The notes under the pieces are model-generated. The model had not been told where the DNA came from. It did no database searches and saw only the letters and a list, made by a program, of their open reading frames with translations. Positions 23,433 to 36,589 of a stretch of 41,315 nucleotides of DNA are shown piece by piece. The DNA comes from an uncultured Verrucomicrobiota bacterium (GTDB lineage Bacteria > Verrucomicrobiota > Verrucomicrobiia > Opitutales > Opitutaceae). The stretch spans positions 1 through 41,315 of the forward strand of contig CAIVDS010000095.1 in NCBI GenBank assembly GCA_903904685.1, read 5' to 3'. Made by a program: the position numbers and the translations under genes. Within the stretch, counting starts at the first letter, position 1. The number at the start of each line of letters is the position of its first letter.

Positions 23433-23909
23433 CGAGCGTCGAGCGACGAGGGCTTGCATACCATGAACCGCGTTCAGTTTCGTTTTGAAAAGCTGGAGGT
23501 CTGGCAGCTTGCCCGGCGCTTCAACCGGCGGATTTACGCGGTGGTCAAAAATTTCCCCGAATGCGAGCACCATGCGCTTTCGTCTCAACTGCGGCGCGCT
23601 TCGGTTTCGGTCGTTTCGAATATTGCCGAGGGGGCGGGGCGCAACTCCGACGCCGATTTCGCCCGTTTTCTGGAAATTGCCTATGGCTCGCTGATGGAAG
23701 TTGTTTCCCAGCTCTTCATTGCCTCGGATGAGGCTTACCTTGAGGGGGCGTCATTTGATTCGTTGCTTGTGGAAGCGGACCTGCTTGCCGCCAAACTTGT
23801 GTCGCTGTCCAAAACGCTGGGCCGCCGTCCCCGTATCGCCAGCCGACCTCCGGCCCTCGATCCTGCCCCTCGGCCCTAGCCCTCGACTTCTGGCCCTCGA
23901 CCCTCGTTT
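23431..23909 (+). mobile_element. IVS-like element 1: four-helix-bundle ORF between word-repeat arms (7-nt words)
   Basis: The left arm (23431-23452) is three 7-base words, GACGAGC, GTCGAGC and GACGAGG. The right arm (23880-23909), read in reverse complement, is AACGAGG, GTCGAGG, GCCAGAA and GTCGAGG. The arms can pair with one word looped out and enclose the four-helix-bundle ORF. The left arm starts at the stop codon of the preceding epimerase gene, and the right arm starts at the base after the ORF's stop. Related GGCCCTCGA words continue inside the last codons of the ORF. The layout is the same as that of element 2 at 28209, although the word sequence is unrelated. Mobility is inferred. 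Confidence 0.5.
23463..23879 (+). CDS. Four-helix-bundle protein, 23S rRNA IVP/S23 family
   Basis: The 138-residue protein shows the family pattern FEKLEVWQLARRFNRRIY, QLRRASVSVVSNIAEGAGR and FARFLEIAYGSLMEVVSQL, four amphipathic helices. Members were first found in intervening sequences of bacterial 23S rRNA, and the Avd protein of diversity-generating retroelements has the same fold. They bind nucleic acid; no enzymatic role is known. The ATG at 23463 is preferred over a TTG at 23454. The last ten residues are proline-rich and are encoded by the right-arm word repeat, so the normal helix bundle ends near residue 122. It interrupts a run of nucleotide-sugar genes. Confidence 0.88.
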   Translation: MNRVQFRFEKLEVWQLARRFNRRIYAVVKNFPECEHHALSSQLRRASVSVVSNIAEGAGRNSDADFARFLEIAYGSLMEVVSQLFIASDEAYLEGASFDSLLVEADLLAAKLVSLSKTLGRRPRIASRPPALDPAPRP

Positions 23910-28208: not shown

Positions 28209-28621
28209 AGTTTAAGTGGGAAGTTTAGGTTTAAGCATGGGAAAGAATTACGAAGATCTTCAGGTTTGGCAGCGTAGCAAAGTCCTTGCTGTCTCGGTGT
28301 ATCGAGCTACGGCCGGACTAAAGGATTTCGGGTTTCGCGATCAAATTACAAGAGCGGCTCTTTCGATTCCTTCCAATATTGCCGAAGGTGCAGAACGGCC
28401 GGGTCGCCGTGAATTTTCCCAGTTCGCAGGTTATGCCAAGGGCTCGGCCGGCGAGCTTCGAACACAACTTCTGATTGGTGCCGAATTGCTCTACATAGAA
28501 CCTAAGCTGGCCGCTCAACTGGCGGAAGAAACATCTCAACTTTCCCGTATGCTACACGCCCTTATCCAATCTTTGAAGGAGACCTCCGAGTGAGCTTAAA
28601 CTTGAACTCCAAACTTAAACC
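28209..28621 (+). mobile_element. IVS-like element 2: four-helix-bundle ORF exactly enclosed by inverted arms
   Basis: The left arm (28209-28236) and the reverse complement of the right arm (28594-28621) align over 28 positions without gaps and with 22 matches. Both begin with GTTTAAGT after one base and end GTTTAAGC. Two of the six mismatches become G-U pairs in RNA. The ATG of the four-helix-bundle ORF is the first base after the left arm, and its stop codon ends where the right arm starts. The transcript could therefore fold into a stem whose loop is the ORF, as in 23S rRNA intervening sequences. The right arm supplies codons for the new N-terminus of rfbG. Mobility and RNA processing are inferred. 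Confidence 0.65.
28237..28593 (+). CDS. Four-helix-bundle protein, 23S rRNA IVP/S23 family
   Basis: The 118 residues carry YEDLQVWQRSKVLAVSVYRA, DQITRAALSIPSNIAEGAER and FAGYAKGSAGELRTQLLIG, the standard family pattern, with four helices filling the chain. It is a paralogue, not a copy, of the protein at 23463. The ATG at 28237 directly follows the element's left arm; a GTG at 28216 lies inside the arm and is less likely. Near its end the ORF contains AGGAG at a good distance from the GTG start of rfbG, and its stop overlaps that start (GTGA), so the element restores translation of the downstream gene. Biochemical role unknown. Confidence 0.9.
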   Translation: MGKNYEDLQVWQRSKVLAVSVYRATAGLKDFGFRDQITRAALSIPSNIAEGAERPGRREFSQFAGYAKGSAGELRTQLLIGAELLYIEPKLAAQLAEETSQLSRMLHALIQSLKETSE

Positions 28622-29897
28622 GGATTCCGCCTTCGGCGGAATCTACGCCGGAAAACGCGTGCTGGTCACCGGCCACACCGGTTTCAAAGGCTCTTGGCTG
28701 TGCGAATGGTTGCTGAGTCTTGGAGCCGATGTGACCGGCTTTGCCCTGCCTCCGGCAACGCAACCGTCATTGTTCGACCAACTCGGCCTTGCTTCGCGTC
28801 TGCGCCATGTCGTGGGAGATGTGCGCGACCTGTCCGCCGTCCGCCGCGTGCTGGAGGAAACCAAGCCCGATTTCGTCTTCCATCTCGCGGCCCAACCGCT
28901 GGTGCGTCTCTCCTACGACCAGCCGGTCGAAACCTATGCGACCAACATCATGGGCACGGTCAACATTCTTGAAGCGCTGCGACTTTATCAAGCCGAGTTG
29001 AAGTCCCAAGTTGAAGTTGAAAGTAAGGGCACCAATCCGGGCTCTGAACTTAAATCTGCCACTTCAAGCTGCGGTCGCGTCATCGCGGCCGTGATGATCA
29101 CCACGGACAAATGCTACGAAAACAAGGAATGGGTGCACAGCTATCGCGAGGAGGATCCGATGGGTGGCTACGATCCCTACAGTTCGTCCAAGGGCGCAGC
29201 CGAACTGGTCATCGCCGCCTACCGTCGGTCGTATTTTACCCCTCCAGCCGATCACCCCCCTCTCAACGATTCAACCCCGCAGGTCCGCGTGGCCTCGGCG
29301 CGTGCGGGCAACGTGCTCGGCGGCGGGGATTGGGCGATGGACCGCATCGTGCCCGACGCCATCCGCGCATTGCAAAGAGGCCGACCCATTCCCGTGCGCA
29401 ACAAAGTCGCCACACGCCCCTGGCAGCATGTGCTGGAGCCGCTTTCAGGTTATCTGCTTTTGGCCAGCGAGCTGGCCAAAACAGTTCAAGTTTCGAATTC
29501 AGGTTCAAGCCCGGCCAACGCCGGCGACTTGAACGGGGAGCTTGAACGGTTGAAAGCACTCCGCGGCGCCTTCAACTTCGGCCCGGCGCTTACCTCCAAC
29601 CGCACCGTGGTCGACCTGGTGCAGGAGATACTCAAGCACTGGCCCGGCAGGTGGGAGGACAAGAGCGACCCCAAGGGGGTGCATGAAGCGCAACTGCTCA
29701 ATCTGGCCACCGACAAGGCCTATCACTTCCTTGGTTGGCGGCCGTCATGGAACTTTGAGCAAACGCTGGAGAAAACCGTCACCTGGTATCGTCAGGTCGA
29801 GGCGCATCCGGCCTCCGTCGACACCGTCACTTTGCAGCATATCGCAGACTACCAAAAAGCCGCCCGTGAACTTGGGTTGCCGTGGGCCGCAAGCTGA
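28590..29897 (+). CDS. rfbG: CDP-glucose 4,6-dehydratase with two in-frame repeat insertions
   Basis: The enzyme converts CDP-glucose to CDP-4-keto-6-deoxyglucose. NAD binding is seen in VTGHTGFKGSW (26-36), the active site in PYSSSK (196-201), and TTDKCYENKEW, SARAGNVLGGGDW and TRPWQHVLEPLSGYLLLA are family hallmarks. The protein has 435 residues against about 360 usually. The surplus lies in an N-terminal stretch from the element-2 arm (LNLNSKLKP), an insertion at about 134-162 just before VIAAVMITTDK, and another at about 298-327 before FNFGPA. Both insertions are encoded by word-repeat palindromes and keep the frame. The GTG start at 28590 has AGGAG upstream. Whether the longer protein is fully active is unknown. 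Confidence 0.92.
   Translation: MSLNLNSKLKPDSAFGGIYAGKRVLVTGHTGFKGSWLCEWLLSLGADVTGFALPPATQPSLFDQLGLASRLRHVVGDVRDLSAVRRVLEETKPDFVFHLAAQPLVRLSYDQPVETYATNIMGTVNILEALRLYQAELKSQVEVESKGTNPGSELKSATSSCGRVIAAVMITTDKCYENKEWVHSYREEDPMGGYDPYSSSKGAAELVIAAYRRSYFTPPADHPPLNDSTPQVRVASARAGNVLGGGDWAMDRIVPDAIRALQRGRPIPVRNKVATRPWQHVLEPLSGYLLLASELAKTVQVSNSGSSPANAGDLNGELERLKALRGAFNFGPALTSNRTVVDLVQEILKHWPGRWEDKSDPKGVHEAQLLNLATDKAYHFLGWRPSWNFEQTLEKTVTWYRQVEAHPASVDTVTLQHIADYQKAARELGLPWAAS
28623..28643 (+). repeat. Perfect 9-bp hairpin next to the right end of element 2
   Basis: GATTCCGCC pairs with GGCGGAATC across a TTC loop, two bases after the right arm. It encodes residues 12-18 of RfbG, before the conserved part of that protein begins, so it may be part of the insertion. 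Confidence 0.7.
28996..29070 (+). repeat. In-frame ORF-less word-repeat palindrome in rfbG, copy 1
   Basis: The left part contains AGTTGAAGT, then AGTTGAAGTTGAAAGT. The right part contains GAACTTAAAT and ACTTCAAGCT, so GTTGAAGT/ACTTCAAG words face each other around a 21-base centre. It matches an insertion of about 27 residues relative to the dehydratase family. The word is the same as in element 2 (GTTnAAGT). Confidence 0.75.
29458..29556 (+). repeat. Perfect hairpin followed by in-frame word-repeat palindrome in rfbG, copy 2
   Basis: A perfect 10-bp hairpin (TTTTGGCCAG/CTGGCCAAAA, loop CGAG; 29458-29481) encodes the conserved LLLASELAK. One base later the left arm begins at 29483 (AGTTCAAGTTTC, then GGTTCAAG), and the right arm at 29527-29556 carries ACTTGAAC and GCTTGAACGG. 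The centre is a small CCGGC/GCCGG hairpin. The insert adds about 25-30 residues to the protein without breaking the frame. Confidence 0.75.
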
Positions 29898-29902
29898 GCA
29901 TT

Positions 29903-29972
29903 TACCATGAAGGTCGGAAAAACCTGAGATACTGCCTGAGCAACCCTCCATGAGCTTCATGTCCTTCATGGT
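29903..29972 (+). repeat. CATGAAG-word hairpin, unit A
   Basis: TACCATGAAGGTC at the left faces CTCCATGAGCTTC and ATGTCCTTCATGGTTA at the right. The unit follows the rfbG stop by five bases. A linker with GATATAGGAATTG leads directly into unit B, and a similar linker joins units D and E. Confidence 0.75.
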
Positions 29973-29998
29973 TAAAACTCCGGCGATATAGGAATTGA

Positions 29999-30064
29999 TA
30001 TACCATGTAGAACATGAGGATCATGAAGGTCGGAAAGGCTGTGAGATTGCAGCCTGATTGAGTT
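29999..30064 (+). repeat. CATGAAG-word left arm, unit B, upstream of the GxxExxY gene
   Basis: TACCATGTAG, AACATGAGG and ATCATGAAGGTCGG are three 9-base words in the left-arm orientation. No right arm follows before the GxxExxY ORF, so the ORF may occupy the space between this arm and the right arm of unit C. Confidence 0.7.
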
Positions 30065-30103
30065 TATTTCTGTCCTCCCAGAGATTCATCGTTGGACTTT
30101 TTT

Positions 30104-30475
30104 ATGGAAAACAACCCATTGGTTTCCGAGGTCATCAATTGCGCGATTGAAGTTCACAAGGCGCTTGAGCCGGGACTGCTGGAGTCAGCTTATGAAGCCT
30201 GCCTGTGCCGGGAATTGGAGCTCCGAAAAATTTCCTACCAAAGGCAGGTTCCGCTCACTTTTTTATACAAGGGAATCCAAATCGATTTCGCCTATCGCAT
30301 GGATATTGTCGTCGCCGACGCTCTCCTTTTGGAGCTGAAGAGCGTCGATCACTTGCATCCTCTCCACGAAGCCCAGCTTATCAGCTATCTCAAGTTGTCA
30401 AAGCTCAAGCAGGGTCTCCTCATCAACTTTAACACCAAACTGCTCAAGGATGGGCTTAAAAGTTTCCTGAATTGA
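30104..30475 (+). CDS. GxxExxY protein (PDDEXK_3-like nuclease fold)
   Basis: The 123-residue protein has the defining motif GLLESAYEACL (G-x-x-E-x-x-Y), a later D-x-V/E-x-K-like core in MDIVVADALLLELKSV, and LHEAQLISYLKLSKLKQGLL. Proteins of this family (PF13366) are predicted members of the PD-(D/E)XK nuclease superfamily, but no activity is established that I know of. The ATG at 30104 is preferred; a TTG at 30092 would add four residues. It lies between rfbG and rfbH with CATGAAG-word repeats on both sides, the downstream one starting at its stop codon. This suggests it is cargo or a driver of that repeat family and not part of sugar synthesis. Confidence 0.88.
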   Translation: MENNPLVSEVINCAIEVHKALEPGLLESAYEACLCRELELRKISYQRQVPLTFLYKGIQIDFAYRMDIVVADALLLELKSVDHLHPLHEAQLISYLKLSKLKQGLLINFNTKLLKDGLKSFLN

Positions 30476-30615
30476 TTTACCATGAAGAGCATGAGGACCA
30501 TGAAGATTGGAAAAGCTTGAGGCATCGCCTGATCGAGAAGCCCTCAATTATATTTATATTCTTTGTGGTCAGTGATTTGAGTCTCTCCATGCCCTCCATG
30601 TTCTTCATGGTTCAT
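30476..30615 (+). repeat. CATGAAG-word hairpin, unit C
   Basis: The left arm (ACCATGAAG, AGCATGAGG, ACCATGAAG) starts at the GxxExxY stop codon. The right arm (30582-30615) is its imperfect inverted partner with about 21 of 27 matches. Thirty bases inside the unit (30507-30536) recur exactly in unit E at 35361-35390. It ends 11 bases before rfbH. Confidence 0.8.
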
Positions 30616-30626
30616 CTTTCCCAAAA

Positions 30627-32378
30627 ATGACTCCCGCCCAACTTAAAGCCGAGATCCTTCGTCTGACCCGCGAATACTCCGCGCTCGTCCACACCGGGCA
30701 ACGCCCCGGTGACGAGGCCGCCCACTCGTCGTGGGCTCCCGGCCAGATCATCTCTTACGCCGGCCGCGTTTTTACCGAGGACGAAGTCGAGGCCGCCGTC
30801 GGTTCCACGCTGGATTTCTGGCTGACGCTCGGCCCCGAGGGCGAAGCCTTCGAGCGGGAGCTCGCCGCCCTCATGGGAGTCAGGCACTCGCTTCTGGTCA
30901 ATTCCGGCTCCTCGGCCAACCTTGTCGCCCTGGCGGCGCTCACCACCCACAAGCTCCCGGCGCACAAGCGCATTCAGCCGGGCGACGAAGTCATCACGGT
31001 GGCCGCGGGGTTTCCCACCACCGCCACGCCGATCATTCAAAACGGCGCCGTGGCCGTCTTCATCGACAACGACCCCGCCACCGGCAACATCCGTCCCGGA
31101 CAGCTTGAAGCCGCCTACGTCGCCGGCAAGACCAAGGCCGTGATGATCGCCCACGCCCTGGGCAATCCATTCGACCTCGGCGCCGTGCTGGCTTTCTGCC
31201 GCAAATACGACCTCTGGCTCATCGAGGACAACTGCGACGCCCTCGGATGCACCTATAGCCTTCCCGTAGCGCGCGCCAAGGTGCTCGGACTTGATCACCT
31301 GCTAAAATTGGCGGAGGCGAACGCGGCAGCCGCGTCAGTTGAAGTTCAAAGTTTAAGTTCAAGTGGCTCGGAAGCTTCAACTTCAACTCAACACTTCAAC
31401 CCGAAGGTTCCCTTCATCCGTGATGGTGTGCTAACGGCATATACCGGATCGTTCGGGGACTTGAGCACGCAGTCGTTTTATCCTCCTCATCATCTTACGA
31501 TGGGCGAGGGCGGGGCGGTCAACATCGTCTCCCGTCCGCCGCTCAAGACCTATGTCGAGAGCTTCCGCGACTGGGGTCGCGACTGCTGGTGCGCCTCCGG
31601 CAAGGACGACACCTGCGGCAAGCGCTTTGGCTGGCAGCTTGGAGAACTCCCCAAGGGCTACGATCACAAATACATTTACAGCCACCTCGGCTACAACCTG
31701 AAGCCACTCGATCCCCAGGCCGCGATCGGCCGCCAGCAACTCAAGAAGCTCCCCGCCTTCATCGAGGCGCGTAAGAAAAACTGGGAGACTCTCCGCGCCG
31801 GCCTCGCCGACTTGGAGCACGTCTTCGATTTCACCCTGCCGACACATGCCACCGCCTGGCGCGGCGCGGCGGCCCGCGTTGAAGGGGCAAGTTTAAGTGG
31901 CAAGCAAACCCATGCGAATGCCGACCCTTCAACTTATCACTTGAACTTCAACTGGGATCAGTCCGGTTGCCGGACCGACCCAAGCTGGTTCGGCTTCATG
32001 CTGCGCGTGAAGGCCTCCGCACCGTTCAGCCACACCGACCTTGCCTGTCATCTTAACGAAAAGAAGATCGGCAACCGGATGTTCTTCGGGGGAAATCTCC
32101 TGCGCCAGCCCGCCTTTGTGCAGCTCCGCAAGGACCGCCCCGACGCCCTGCGGGTTGTCTCCGCCGATGGCCGCGCGCTGACGACCGCCCAGCTTGAAGT
32201 TGAACTTAAAGCTTCAACGGGAGGCGAAGCCTCTTCGCCGCTTCCCGGTGCCGACGTGATCATGCACCGCGCCCTCTTCCTCGGCACCTATCCCGGGCTG
32301 ACCGCCGCGATGCTCGCCTACGAAATCAAAGTGATCCGCGAATTTGTTGAAAACCGGCGGTCGGCCGCTTCCACTTGA
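30627..32378 (+). CDS. rfbH: CDP-4-keto-6-deoxyglucose 3-dehydrase (E1) with three in-frame repeat insertions
   Basis: This PMP- and iron-sulfur-dependent dehydrase removes the 3-hydroxyl in 3,6-dideoxyhexose synthesis. The histidine that replaces the usual PLP lysine is in PPHHLTMGEGG (288-289). The iron-sulfur motif C-x-C-x7-C is C320, C322 and C330. The fourth ligand, in NCDALGCTY (C203), is normally 58 residues upstream but is 117 away here, because about 59 residues are inserted at 211-269. Two more insertions lie at about 413-450 and 510-545, so the protein has 583 residues against about 440. All three contain word-repeat palindromes and keep the frame. E1 needs a reductase partner (RfbI type) that is not in the window. 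Confidence 0.93.
   Translation: MTPAQLKAEILRLTREYSALVHTGQRPGDEAAHSSWAPGQIISYAGRVFTEDEVEAAVGSTLDFWLTLGPEGEAFERELAALMGVRHSLLVNSGSSANLVALAALTTHKLPAHKRIQPGDEVITVAAGFPTTATPIIQNGAVAVFIDNDPATGNIRPGQLEAAYVAGKTKAVMIAHALGNPFDLGAVLAFCRKYDLWLIEDNCDALGCTYSLPVARAKVLGLDHLLKLAEANAAAASVEVQSLSSSGSEASTSTQHFNPKVPFIRDGVLTAYTGSFGDLSTQSFYPPHHLTMGEGGAVNIVSRPPLKTYVESFRDWGRDCWCASGKDDTCGKRFGWQLGELPKGYDHKYIYSHLGYNLKPLDPQAAIGRQQLKKLPAFIEARKKNWETLRAGLADLEHVFDFTLPTHATAWRGAAARVEGASLSGKQTHANADPSTYHLNFNWDQSGCRTDPSWFGFMLRVKASAPFSHTDLACHLNEKKIGNRMFFGGNLLRQPAFVQLRKDRPDALRVVSADGRALTTAQLEVELKASTGGEASSPLPGADVIMHRALFLGTYPGLTAAMLAYEIKVIREFVENRRSAAST
31321..31400 (+). repeat. In-frame word-repeat palindrome in rfbH, copy 1, preceded by a perfect mini-hairpin
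   Basis: ACGCGG/CCGCGT with a CAG loop (31321-31335) is followed, one base later, by a left arm (31337-31364) with GTTGAAGT, AGTTTAAGTT and CAAGT words. The right arm (31373-31400), with CTTCAACTTCAACT and ACTTCAAC, is complementary at 20 of 27 positions. The loop is eight bases. It lies in the extra stretch between the two iron-sulfur cysteine clusters. Confidence 0.8.
31865..31952 (+). repeat. In-frame word-repeat palindrome in rfbH, copy 2
   Basis: The left arm starts at 31878 with GTTGAAGG and CAAGTTTAAGTGG. The right arm (31925-31952) has CCTTCAACTT, CACTTGAAC and TTCAAC. A 5-bp hairpin (CGCGG/CCGCG) ends exactly where the left arm begins, but in GC-rich DNA this one may be chance. It falls in the surplus before the conserved TDPSWFGF. 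Confidence 0.7.
32191..32246 (+). repeat. In-frame word-repeat palindrome in rfbH, copy 3, with adjacent perfect hairpin
   Basis: AGCTTGAAGTTGAAC and TTAAAGCTTCAAC face each other at 32191-32218. GGCGAAG/CTTCGCC with a CCT loop follows at 32223-32239, and outer GGGA/TCCC bases extend it. It encodes the surplus AQLEVELKASTGGEASSPLP just before the conserved C-terminal part. Confidence 0.7.
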
Positions 32379-35214: not shown

Positions 35215-35308
35215 TTTACCATGTAGAGCATGAAGACCATGAAGGTCGGGCTCTAAATTGCGGTTTGATTGAGAAGCTCCATGCCCTTCATGTCCTCCAT
35301 GGTAGAAA
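35215..35308 (+). repeat. CATGAAG-word hairpin, unit D
   Basis: The left arm (TACCATGTAG, AGCATGAAG, ACCATGAAGG) and the inverted right arm (CTCCATGCCC, TTCATGTCC, TCCATGGTA) match at about 22 of 28 positions around a 27-base centre. It lies in the 446-base gap between the heptosyltransferase and methyltransferase genes. That gap (35028-35473) holds no gene. It contains only units D and E and some plain sequence. Confidence 0.82.
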
Positions 35309-35328: not shown

Positions 35329-35427
35329 TTTTACCATGAAGCACATGAAGACCATGAAGCTTGGAAAAGCTTGAGGCATCGCCTGATCGATAAGTTTGAA
35401 CTTGAACGCATAACTTGAACTGAAGCG
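35329..35427 (+). repeat. CATGAAG-word left arm, unit E, truncated by an ACTTGAAC-word stretch
   Basis: TACCATGAAG, CACATGAAG and ACCATGAAGC are followed by the 30 bases shared with unit C. Instead of a right arm, the sequence changes at 35392 to GTTTGAACTTGAAC and AACTTGAACTGAAGCG words. Units D and E are joined by CGATATGAGAATTG, like the linker between A and B. The 15-mer ACTTGAACTGAAGCG recurs exactly at 36563, also just before a gene. Confidence 0.78.
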
Positions 35428-36518: not shown

Positions 36519-36589
36519 CACACGAAGCCACGAAGACAAGAAGTTTTCCACTTGAACTAGCCACTTGAACTGAAGCGTGCTTCGCACGC
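36519..36589 (+). repeat. CACGAAG-word arm followed by CACTTGAAC words and a mini-hairpin
   Basis: CACACGAAGC, CACGAAGA and CAAGAAG form a three-word arm. CCACTTGAACT occurs next, then GCCACTTGAACTGAAGCG. A perfect 6-bp hairpin (GCGTGC/GCACGC, loop TTC; 36575-36589) ends the stretch 12 bases before the next start codon. Confidence 0.6.

Follow-up and report, generated by a model that had tools for sequence, protein, structure and literature searches.

MITEs are non-autonomous inverted-repeat copies partnered by a DDE transposase. In the REPIN/RAYT system, as outlined in PMC3116915, the repeats are inverted doublets with variable spacers that are extragenic, dispersed and situated near a gene for the enzyme, and each enzyme lineage has its own repeat class. 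A further arrangement is the intervening sequence (IVS) in the 23S rRNA of Coxiella, in which, according to the outline in PMC4990558, three tandem GACAGAT heptamers precede the ORF of S23p and which is excised by RNase III. Here we describe hairpins made of short words around a small gene of the GxxExxY family in a stretch of 41,315 nt (contig CAIVDS010000095.1 of assembly GCA_903904685.1; hereafter the window) from an uncultured member of the Opitutaceae (Verrucomicrobiota). The initial annotation of this DNA had described a GxxExxY gene embedded in hairpins of CATGAAG words, and this description is borne out by the mapping of the words (at most one mismatch) and by protein scores above the cut-offs. 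The features, in order of position, are:

29904-29972, no strand: unit A, a hairpin with one CATGAAG word on the left (29906) and three on the right (29946/55/64); word mapping, folding
29973-30001, no strand: linker TAAAACTCCGGCGATATAGGAATTGATAT joining A and B; sequence comparison
30002-30028, no strand: unit B, a left arm of three 9-nt words (30004/13/22) upstream of the gene; word mapping
30104-30475, + strand: GxxExxY gene, 123 aa, predicted minimal PD-(D/E)XK nuclease (TIGR04256/PF13366); profile scores, catalytic residues, predicted model
30479-30505, no strand: unit C, left arm (words 30481/90/99); word mapping
30585-30611, no strand: unit C, right arm (words 30585/94/603); word mapping
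35218-35303, no strand: unit D, a solo hairpin with three left (35220/29/38) and three right words (35277/86/95); word mapping, folding
35333-35359, no strand: unit E, a left arm only (35335/44/53), adjoining D; word mapping, which found no right arm

The gene is intact (ATG at 30104, stop codon at 30473-30475, + strand, as read from the ORFs of the window) and sits between two long ORFs, one ending at 29897 and one starting at 30627, which we take from their motifs to encode a CDP-glucose 4,6-dehydratase and an rfbH-like enzyme. Unit A begins 6 nt past the stop codon (29895-29897) of the upstream ORF. The placement of units A, B and C around the gene was annotated correctly, but B and E each amount to half a unit, and A has a single word in its left arm; for B, the opposite strand has no CATGAAG word (at most one mismatch) ahead of the gene, which is enclosed by the left arm of B and the right arm of C, as in relatives. 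The downstream arm, thought to start at the stop codon, in fact begins 3 nt past it. Arms of three 9-base words are present in C (21 of 27 positions matching, by eye) and D, not on the left of A, and the 30 bases reported as identical to unit C are found in E, not in D (by eye). Units C and E are 91% similar over 70 nt and C and D 93% over 30 nt, and the bases after the arm of E match the loop of C. The tandem stretches A-linker-B and D-linker-E agree at 81% over 95 nt; a linker similar to TAAAACTCCGGCGATATAGGAATTGATAT connects D and E and is also present in copies on contig C8. Folded as single-stranded DNA, units C, D and A are more stable than shuffled sequences (z -2.80, -2.81 and -3.68, respectively). 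No Rfam family was found in the window at gathering score. The units resemble the rRNA IVS, as far as this is portrayed in PMC4990558, in having a small ORF inside a hairpin and short tandem words before the start, but differ in the protein, in their position between protein genes and in the steps between words (8-10 nt vs 7 nt). The unit in the window lies between two long protein ORFs and not in 23S rRNA, and the window has no rRNA family match.

The protein, read from the second codon for both profile runs, scored 140 bits against TIGR04256 (cut-off 35) and 134.9 bits against PF13366 (cut-off 22), and thus passed both curated cut-offs. Residues D66, E76 and K78 (counted without the Met, as is E26) are invariant, and E26 is conserved at 90% or more, in an alignment of 36 rows that omits L194 and L235 (in-frame stops) as well as L199, L207, L210, L213, L220, L227, L236 and L238; all four are present in the window protein, and we presume this E...D...ExK set to be catalytic, going by the motifs of PD-(D/E)XK enzymes. 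The predicted model (pLDDT 94.8, pTM 0.87) gave no Foldseek match at E <=0.001. With VIA-align the top solved fold was 4ic1 (SSO0001), presumably Cas4 (Z 9.6, 100 residues, rmsd 4.4), and below it follow further PD-(D/E)XK enzymes among mixed rows, including Hjc (1gef; Z 6.7, 86 residues, rmsd 3.3). Cas4 and Hjc thus rank high among the solved folds compared with the model, a likeness that probably reflects a generic nuclease fold and shows no function, but they are only 16% (4ic1) and 15% (1gef) identical to the window protein. A sequence search of solved structures found nothing significant (best E = 1, T7 endonuclease I). Judged by its model, the window protein consists of the nuclease fold alone, with its catalytic residues intact. 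It has no phage match; eight records of a plasmid collection match it, all at <60% identity and all predicted to be non-mobilizable. Its closest matches among the 182 loci considered below are, after itself, L193 and L199 (59.6% identity). The genes at L199 (a planctomycete) and L211 (Desulfobulbaceae) also have CATGAAG words in their flanks. A second, divergent GxxExxY gene of the same genome (L002, C21:103869-104210) has DPK where relatives have ExK, and its arms consist of CACGGAT words with steps of 9 and 10 in both arms.

The 3.23-Mb genome (114 contigs) contains ACCATGAAGNNCATGANGNNCATGAAG with at most three mismatches at 19 places (7 on C95, 8 on C8, 2 on C114 and 2 on C21, the latter pair reading CACGAAG), and the reversed pattern, searched in the same way, at none. 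The CATGAAG hairpin family of this genome amounts to 15-17 arms, and its units on C95, C8 and C114 have the arms and parts of the loop and linker in common (e.g., C114 vs C8_5, 91% over 111 nt; B vs C8_5, 82% over 89 nt). Among 150 genomes of the family, a set that includes this one, the CATGAAG arm (at most two mismatches) was found 15 times here, eight times in G024, twice in G138 and once in each of six others; none was found in the four further genomes sampled from this genus. We had guessed that the arms of G024 surround a GxxExxY gene, but the five stretches around all eight are devoid of it. For the window's own word, G024 is, therefore, a counter-case to a partnership of hairpin and gene, with eight CATGAAG arms and no GxxExxY gene near them.

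Genes of TIGR04256 are present in 129 of the 150 family genomes and in 163 of 288 genomes of the phylum (162 over the cut-off). Arms were scored as three copies of one 7-nt word at steps of 8-12 nt upstream of the gene and, reverse-complemented, downstream (maximum 63, threshold 54). This spaced-triple score replaced a first word score, which was too lenient and was dropped because controls often reached its top value. Inverted three-word arms occur on both sides of the gene at 144 of 182 distinct GxxExxY loci (202 taken minus 4 too short and 16 duplicates), mostly high-scoring family members and not a random sample, and 38 loci stay below the threshold. The armed loci comprise 91 of 112 from the family, mostly the top of the bit-score lists (30 + 60 from the top among the matches listed), and 53 of 70 from a scan of named genomes, taken as the best 80 of 351. 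By comparison, the threshold was reached by 0/220 (family) and 1/127 (named) region pairs of the same loci, 1/347 in total, and, with one other ORF taken per locus, by 0/142 of their flanks. When 91 of the loci were run earlier, 73 had arms, as compared to 0/180 region pairs and 0/91 dinucleotide shuffles; mixing upstream and downstream flanks of different loci gave 26/91, because words are common to several loci. The named matches include Acidobacteriota, Planctomycetota, Cyanobacteriota, Bacteroidota, Pseudomonadota, Chloroflexota and SAR324. At two SAR324 loci with word arms (L194 and L235) the matched frame has an in-frame stop codon.

The word varies between loci and largely agrees within one locus. 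CACGGAG, CACAGAG, CACGAAG, CGCAGAG, CGCAAAG, CATGAAG, CACTGAT and CACTAAT were seen, as were CACGAAA, CACGAAT, CGCAGAT, CACGACG and ACAGGAT. The inner downstream word lies at a median of 9 nt from the stop codon (138 arm pairs), and at a few loci (e.g., L043, L215) the arms are inside out, as though there were a complete hairpin on either side. The pattern of steps is equal in both arms at 113 of the 144 loci, as compared to 19.5 after shuffling of loci and 56.5 (maximum 69) after shuffling within word classes, which suggests that one arm is a copy of the other or that the two are read jointly. Words 2 and 3 also match across the arms slightly better at the paired position (6.39 vs 6.25 of 7, p 0.003). 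Complementarity of the spacers was considered and rejected, since at the 28 loci with 2-nt spacers it is 0.44 at the paired position and 0.46 at the other.

The word follows the lineage of the protein. On a tree of 142 proteins, obtained by a quick method from few columns and with many open forks, and omitting L110 and L158 of the 144 armed loci (no assignable word), the class of the word end changes 11 times, compared to a mean of 37.3 for shuffled classes, and none of 200 shuffles was as low. One clade of 33 rows holds 18 of the 20 T-class and 11 of the 12 A-class words. Several word classes can be present in one genome, such as CACTAAT and CACnGAG in G050, CACTGAT and CACnAAA in G037, and CACTAAT, CACAGAG and CACnACG in G071. 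This clustering of words by lineage could be due to co-inheritance of gene and arms, and effects in trans were, therefore, tested, a protein being assigned to a lineage at 155 bits or more to L112 (CACTGAT lineage) or L109 (CACGAAA lineage), a value chosen after the lists had been seen. For these two classes, hairpin abundance is tied to the matching lineage. Among the 150 family genomes, at least five CACTGAT arms were found in 12 of 18 with the L112 lineage vs 8 of 132 without it, and at least five CACGAAA arms in 28 of 35 with the L109 lineage vs 27 of 115 without it. The crossed comparisons were not significant (at least five CACTGAT arms by L109 lineage, 6/35 vs 14/115; at least five CACGAAA arms by L112 lineage, 9/18 vs 46/132). 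In a permutation within genera, for which the gene's own two arms were subtracted, the association was found for CACTGAT and L112 (p 0.04; higher mean in 6 of 9 informative genera) and for CACGAAA and L109 (p 0.0002; higher mean in 13 of 15), with p values of 0.61 and 0.11 for the crossed pairs. Eight genomes without the L112 lineage (G074, G097, G115, G118, G123, G125, G134 and G135) nevertheless contain at least five CACTGAT arms, and G115 as many as 64. Our guess that a GxxExxY gene of G115, on C38, would be flanked by CACTGAT arms proved wrong, CGCAAAG-like words being found there instead (one of three loci fetched).

Presence of the gene itself is likewise associated with presence of arms. 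Arms of either type (CACTGAT or CACGAAA) occur in 98 of the 129 family genomes with any TIGR04256 gene and in 7 of the 21 without. According to the initial annotation, its proposal would be refuted by a lack of enrichment of the repeats in genomes with the gene over relatives lacking it; such enrichment is, however, evident: in the 288 genomes of the phylum, the exact pattern CCACRRAGN{1,2}CACRRAGN{1,2}CACRRAG was found in 87 of 163 with the gene vs 4 of 125 without it (G021, G216, G278 and G359), in raw counts uncorrected for relatedness and genome size and with 21 of the 125 gene-less genomes from one genus (g61). The arms total 860 in genomes with the gene vs 7 in those without, and three or more were found in 59 vs 0 genomes. 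A reversed control pattern was found nowhere in the phylum set. The remaining 76 gene-bearing genomes lack the exact pattern, which would be expected if they used different words.

Solo hairpins occupy short intergenic gaps. Three genomes (G064, G065 and G020) provided 20 fetched loci, of which 18 have two arms with loops of 14-84 nt and two (L315, L327) a single arm; several of these hairpins start directly after a stop codon (by eye). They have their arms in common but not, by eye, their loops, and no recent copying of whole units is, therefore, visible. In this they differ from MITEs, which they resemble as inverted-repeat copies. A closer likeness to MITEs is found in G116 (L239-L256), with units of ~175 bp that contain CACTGAT words and have outer ends of the CCTAAATTCCGCAG type outside the words. 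Of 13 copies printed and judged by eye, six have 5-bp duplications (L243, L244, L248, L251, L253 and L256), three have near-matches (L246, L252 and L254), L239 and L242 have none and L240 and L241 were left unjudged. Units with CGCGGAG-like words in the same genome have similar CCTAAATTCCGCAG-type ends. A larger repeat of G050 contains arms with a 12-nt loop, and one arm in this genome (L265) consists of seven CACTGAT words in tandem. Large numbers of copies coincide with larger, MITE-like units in both G116 and G050, so that another transposase may do the moving there, and part of the amplification may rest on an ordinary transposase.

The junction of gatA and gatB, read by eye in those 29 of 31 genomes that gave a gatB match, illustrates how variably such gaps are filled. 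It contains a GxxExxY gene with words in 15 genomes, a solo word hairpin in four (G080, G130, G040 and G074) and a palindrome of other words in five (G097, G113, G037, G116 and G075), and is empty in five (17 bp in G000, 7 bp in G079, 57 in G138, 90 in G044 and 103 in G147). Within a single genus, it is empty in G000, carries the gene in G041, G117 and G134 and other words in G097. On the tree of proteins from the family loci, placement at gatAB changes five times as compared to a shuffled mean of 23, and it is, therefore, to some extent inherited and to some extent newly gained or lost. Starts of alaS-like genes, recognised by motif, follow five GxxExxY genes.

We consider it somewhat more probable than otherwise (roughly 0.55) that the GxxExxY gene encodes the protein of a repeat system with a cognate word for each lineage, whose nuclease nicks or cuts the folded hairpins, which are then spread by repair. 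An arm is an array of three 7-nt words at mostly 8-10-nt steps, and two inverted arms flank either the gene or, in a solo hairpin, a short non-coding loop. The nuclease would bind the word array when it is folded back, as single-stranded or cruciform DNA, and would nick or cut it. Host repair would then place copies of the hairpins, either together with the gene or alone, at further intergenic sites, and in this way the hairpins would live as non-autonomous partners of the nuclease. The REP/RAYT-like partnership proposed initially has been strengthened, since arms are enriched in genomes with the gene and flank most of the genes tested, the word follows the lineage and two word classes match in trans. 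The equal steps of both arms, the loop and linker parts common to units on different contigs, the varied occupants of the gatA-gatB junction, the intact catalytic residues and the nuclease fold also speak for the explanation as a repeat system, whereas G024, the eight genomes with CACTGAT arms but no L112 lineage, the larger units of G116 and G050, the unrelated loops of the solo hairpins in G064, G065 and G020 and the 38 loci below the threshold speak against it. As in the REPIN/RAYT system portrayed in PMC3116915, the hairpins are inverted doublets with a spacer, dispersed and, by eye, extragenic, and their word class is matched to the lineage of the enzyme (by tree, trans counts and within-genus test). 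However, the RAYT enzyme is a tyrosine (Y1/HUH) transposase, whereas GxxExxY is a PD-(D/E)XK protein by profile and predicted fold, and the arms differ in being arrays of 7-nt words, mostly at 8-10-nt steps, with the gene usually between two of them. By analogy, the best reading would be a REPIN/RAYT-like system with an unrelated nuclease, the likeness being one of working principle and not of enzyme or arm structure.

Alternatively, the units could be RNA elements similar to the rRNA IVS, in which the arms within a polycistronic transcript base-pair and are cut by RNase III or by the GxxExxY protein itself, separating the genes of an operon, and which persist through processing or protection of host mRNA. 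The position of arms in gaps between co-directional genes, such as gatA and gatB, agrees with this, and so does the parallel arrangement of S23p, the protein of 23S-rRNA IVSs, with the RNase III excision and the three heptamers that PMC4990558 outlines for Coxiella. However, at the 113 loci with equal steps the mismatches between arms on the gene strand comprise 78 G-U vs 136 A-C, the opposite of what selection for RNA pairing would give, so that pairing of RNA on this strand is unsupported. Moreover, spacers are complementary at 49% of positions as compared to 93% for the words, the latter figure being inflated by the detection of arms, and the predicted fold is most like that of DNA nucleases. 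We consider this explanation unlikely. Together with the equal steps of both arms, the mismatch excess and the low complementarity of the spacers favour a mechanism in which the cognate nuclease would recognise word arrays in folded DNA, followed by repair-based copying or maintenance.

Slightly less likely still seems passive co-inheritance, in which gene and arms form one cassette that is passed on vertically or moved by unrelated transposases or recombination, so that word and protein match merely because they travel together. The clustered gatAB placement on the protein tree, the MITE-like carriers with 5-bp duplications in G116 and the words inside larger repeats in G050 all fit such a history. 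On its own, however, it leaves unexplained why, within genera, hairpins distant from the gene go with the matching lineage and why hairpins are nearly absent from genomes without the gene. Host regulation, with an incidental nuclease gene and with arms that serve operon control as terminators or, through CGGAGG-like ends of words close to start codons, as translation signals, would suit the short distance of arms to gene ends and the Shine-Dalgarno-like core of words such as CACGGAGG (by eye), but it is most improbable given junctions that are filled in one species and empty in a congener (G000, G079) and arm numbers that depend on the matching nuclease lineage.

A sister case is that of S23p, a four-helix-bundle protein (PF05635), for which a profile search found two genes in the window (28216-28593 and 23454-23879). 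Inverted words of the AGTTTAAG type flank the former (by eye). Ungapped inverted repeats with a score of at least 12 were found in the flanks of 20 of 30 PF05635 loci of the family vs 1 of 59 control pairs, and many of them consist by eye of head-to-tail 7-nt words (e.g., AGGAGTC, AGTTGAG, AGTAGCG); the word score with 8-12-nt steps was reached by 1 of the 30. Repeats of CTTGAAC-type words, possibly words of the S23p type, lie beside the CATGAAG units (28595-28627, 35395-35427 and 36545-36577) and also beside the copies on C8. It is conceivable, if rather doubtful, that GxxExxY and S23p both belong, as separate branches, to a single pan-bacterial class of word hairpins so far unrecognised, which colonises operon junctions and, as the rRNA IVS, even rRNA genes; the words of an element would change in concert, new arms being written from a word template under control of the protein and not inherited base by base.

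Searches of the open PMC literature listed no paper that links GxxExxY with repeats; the family is mentioned in a passage of PMC8934634 at a place where another tool saw cas4. Our results point to a nuclease-linked repeat family that has so far not been recognised. As far as literature searches show, both GxxExxY and S23p are widespread and annotated proteins without a known function, and for the GxxExxY nuclease a likely substrate can now be put forward, i.e., the hairpin of its cognate word. Many word repeats between genes in several phyla are thereby offered a common account, and the old puzzle of the rRNA intervening sequences is placed beside a much wider phenomenon. This suggests that REPIN/RAYT-like partnerships of repeats and enzymes arose more than once, with unrelated enzymes.
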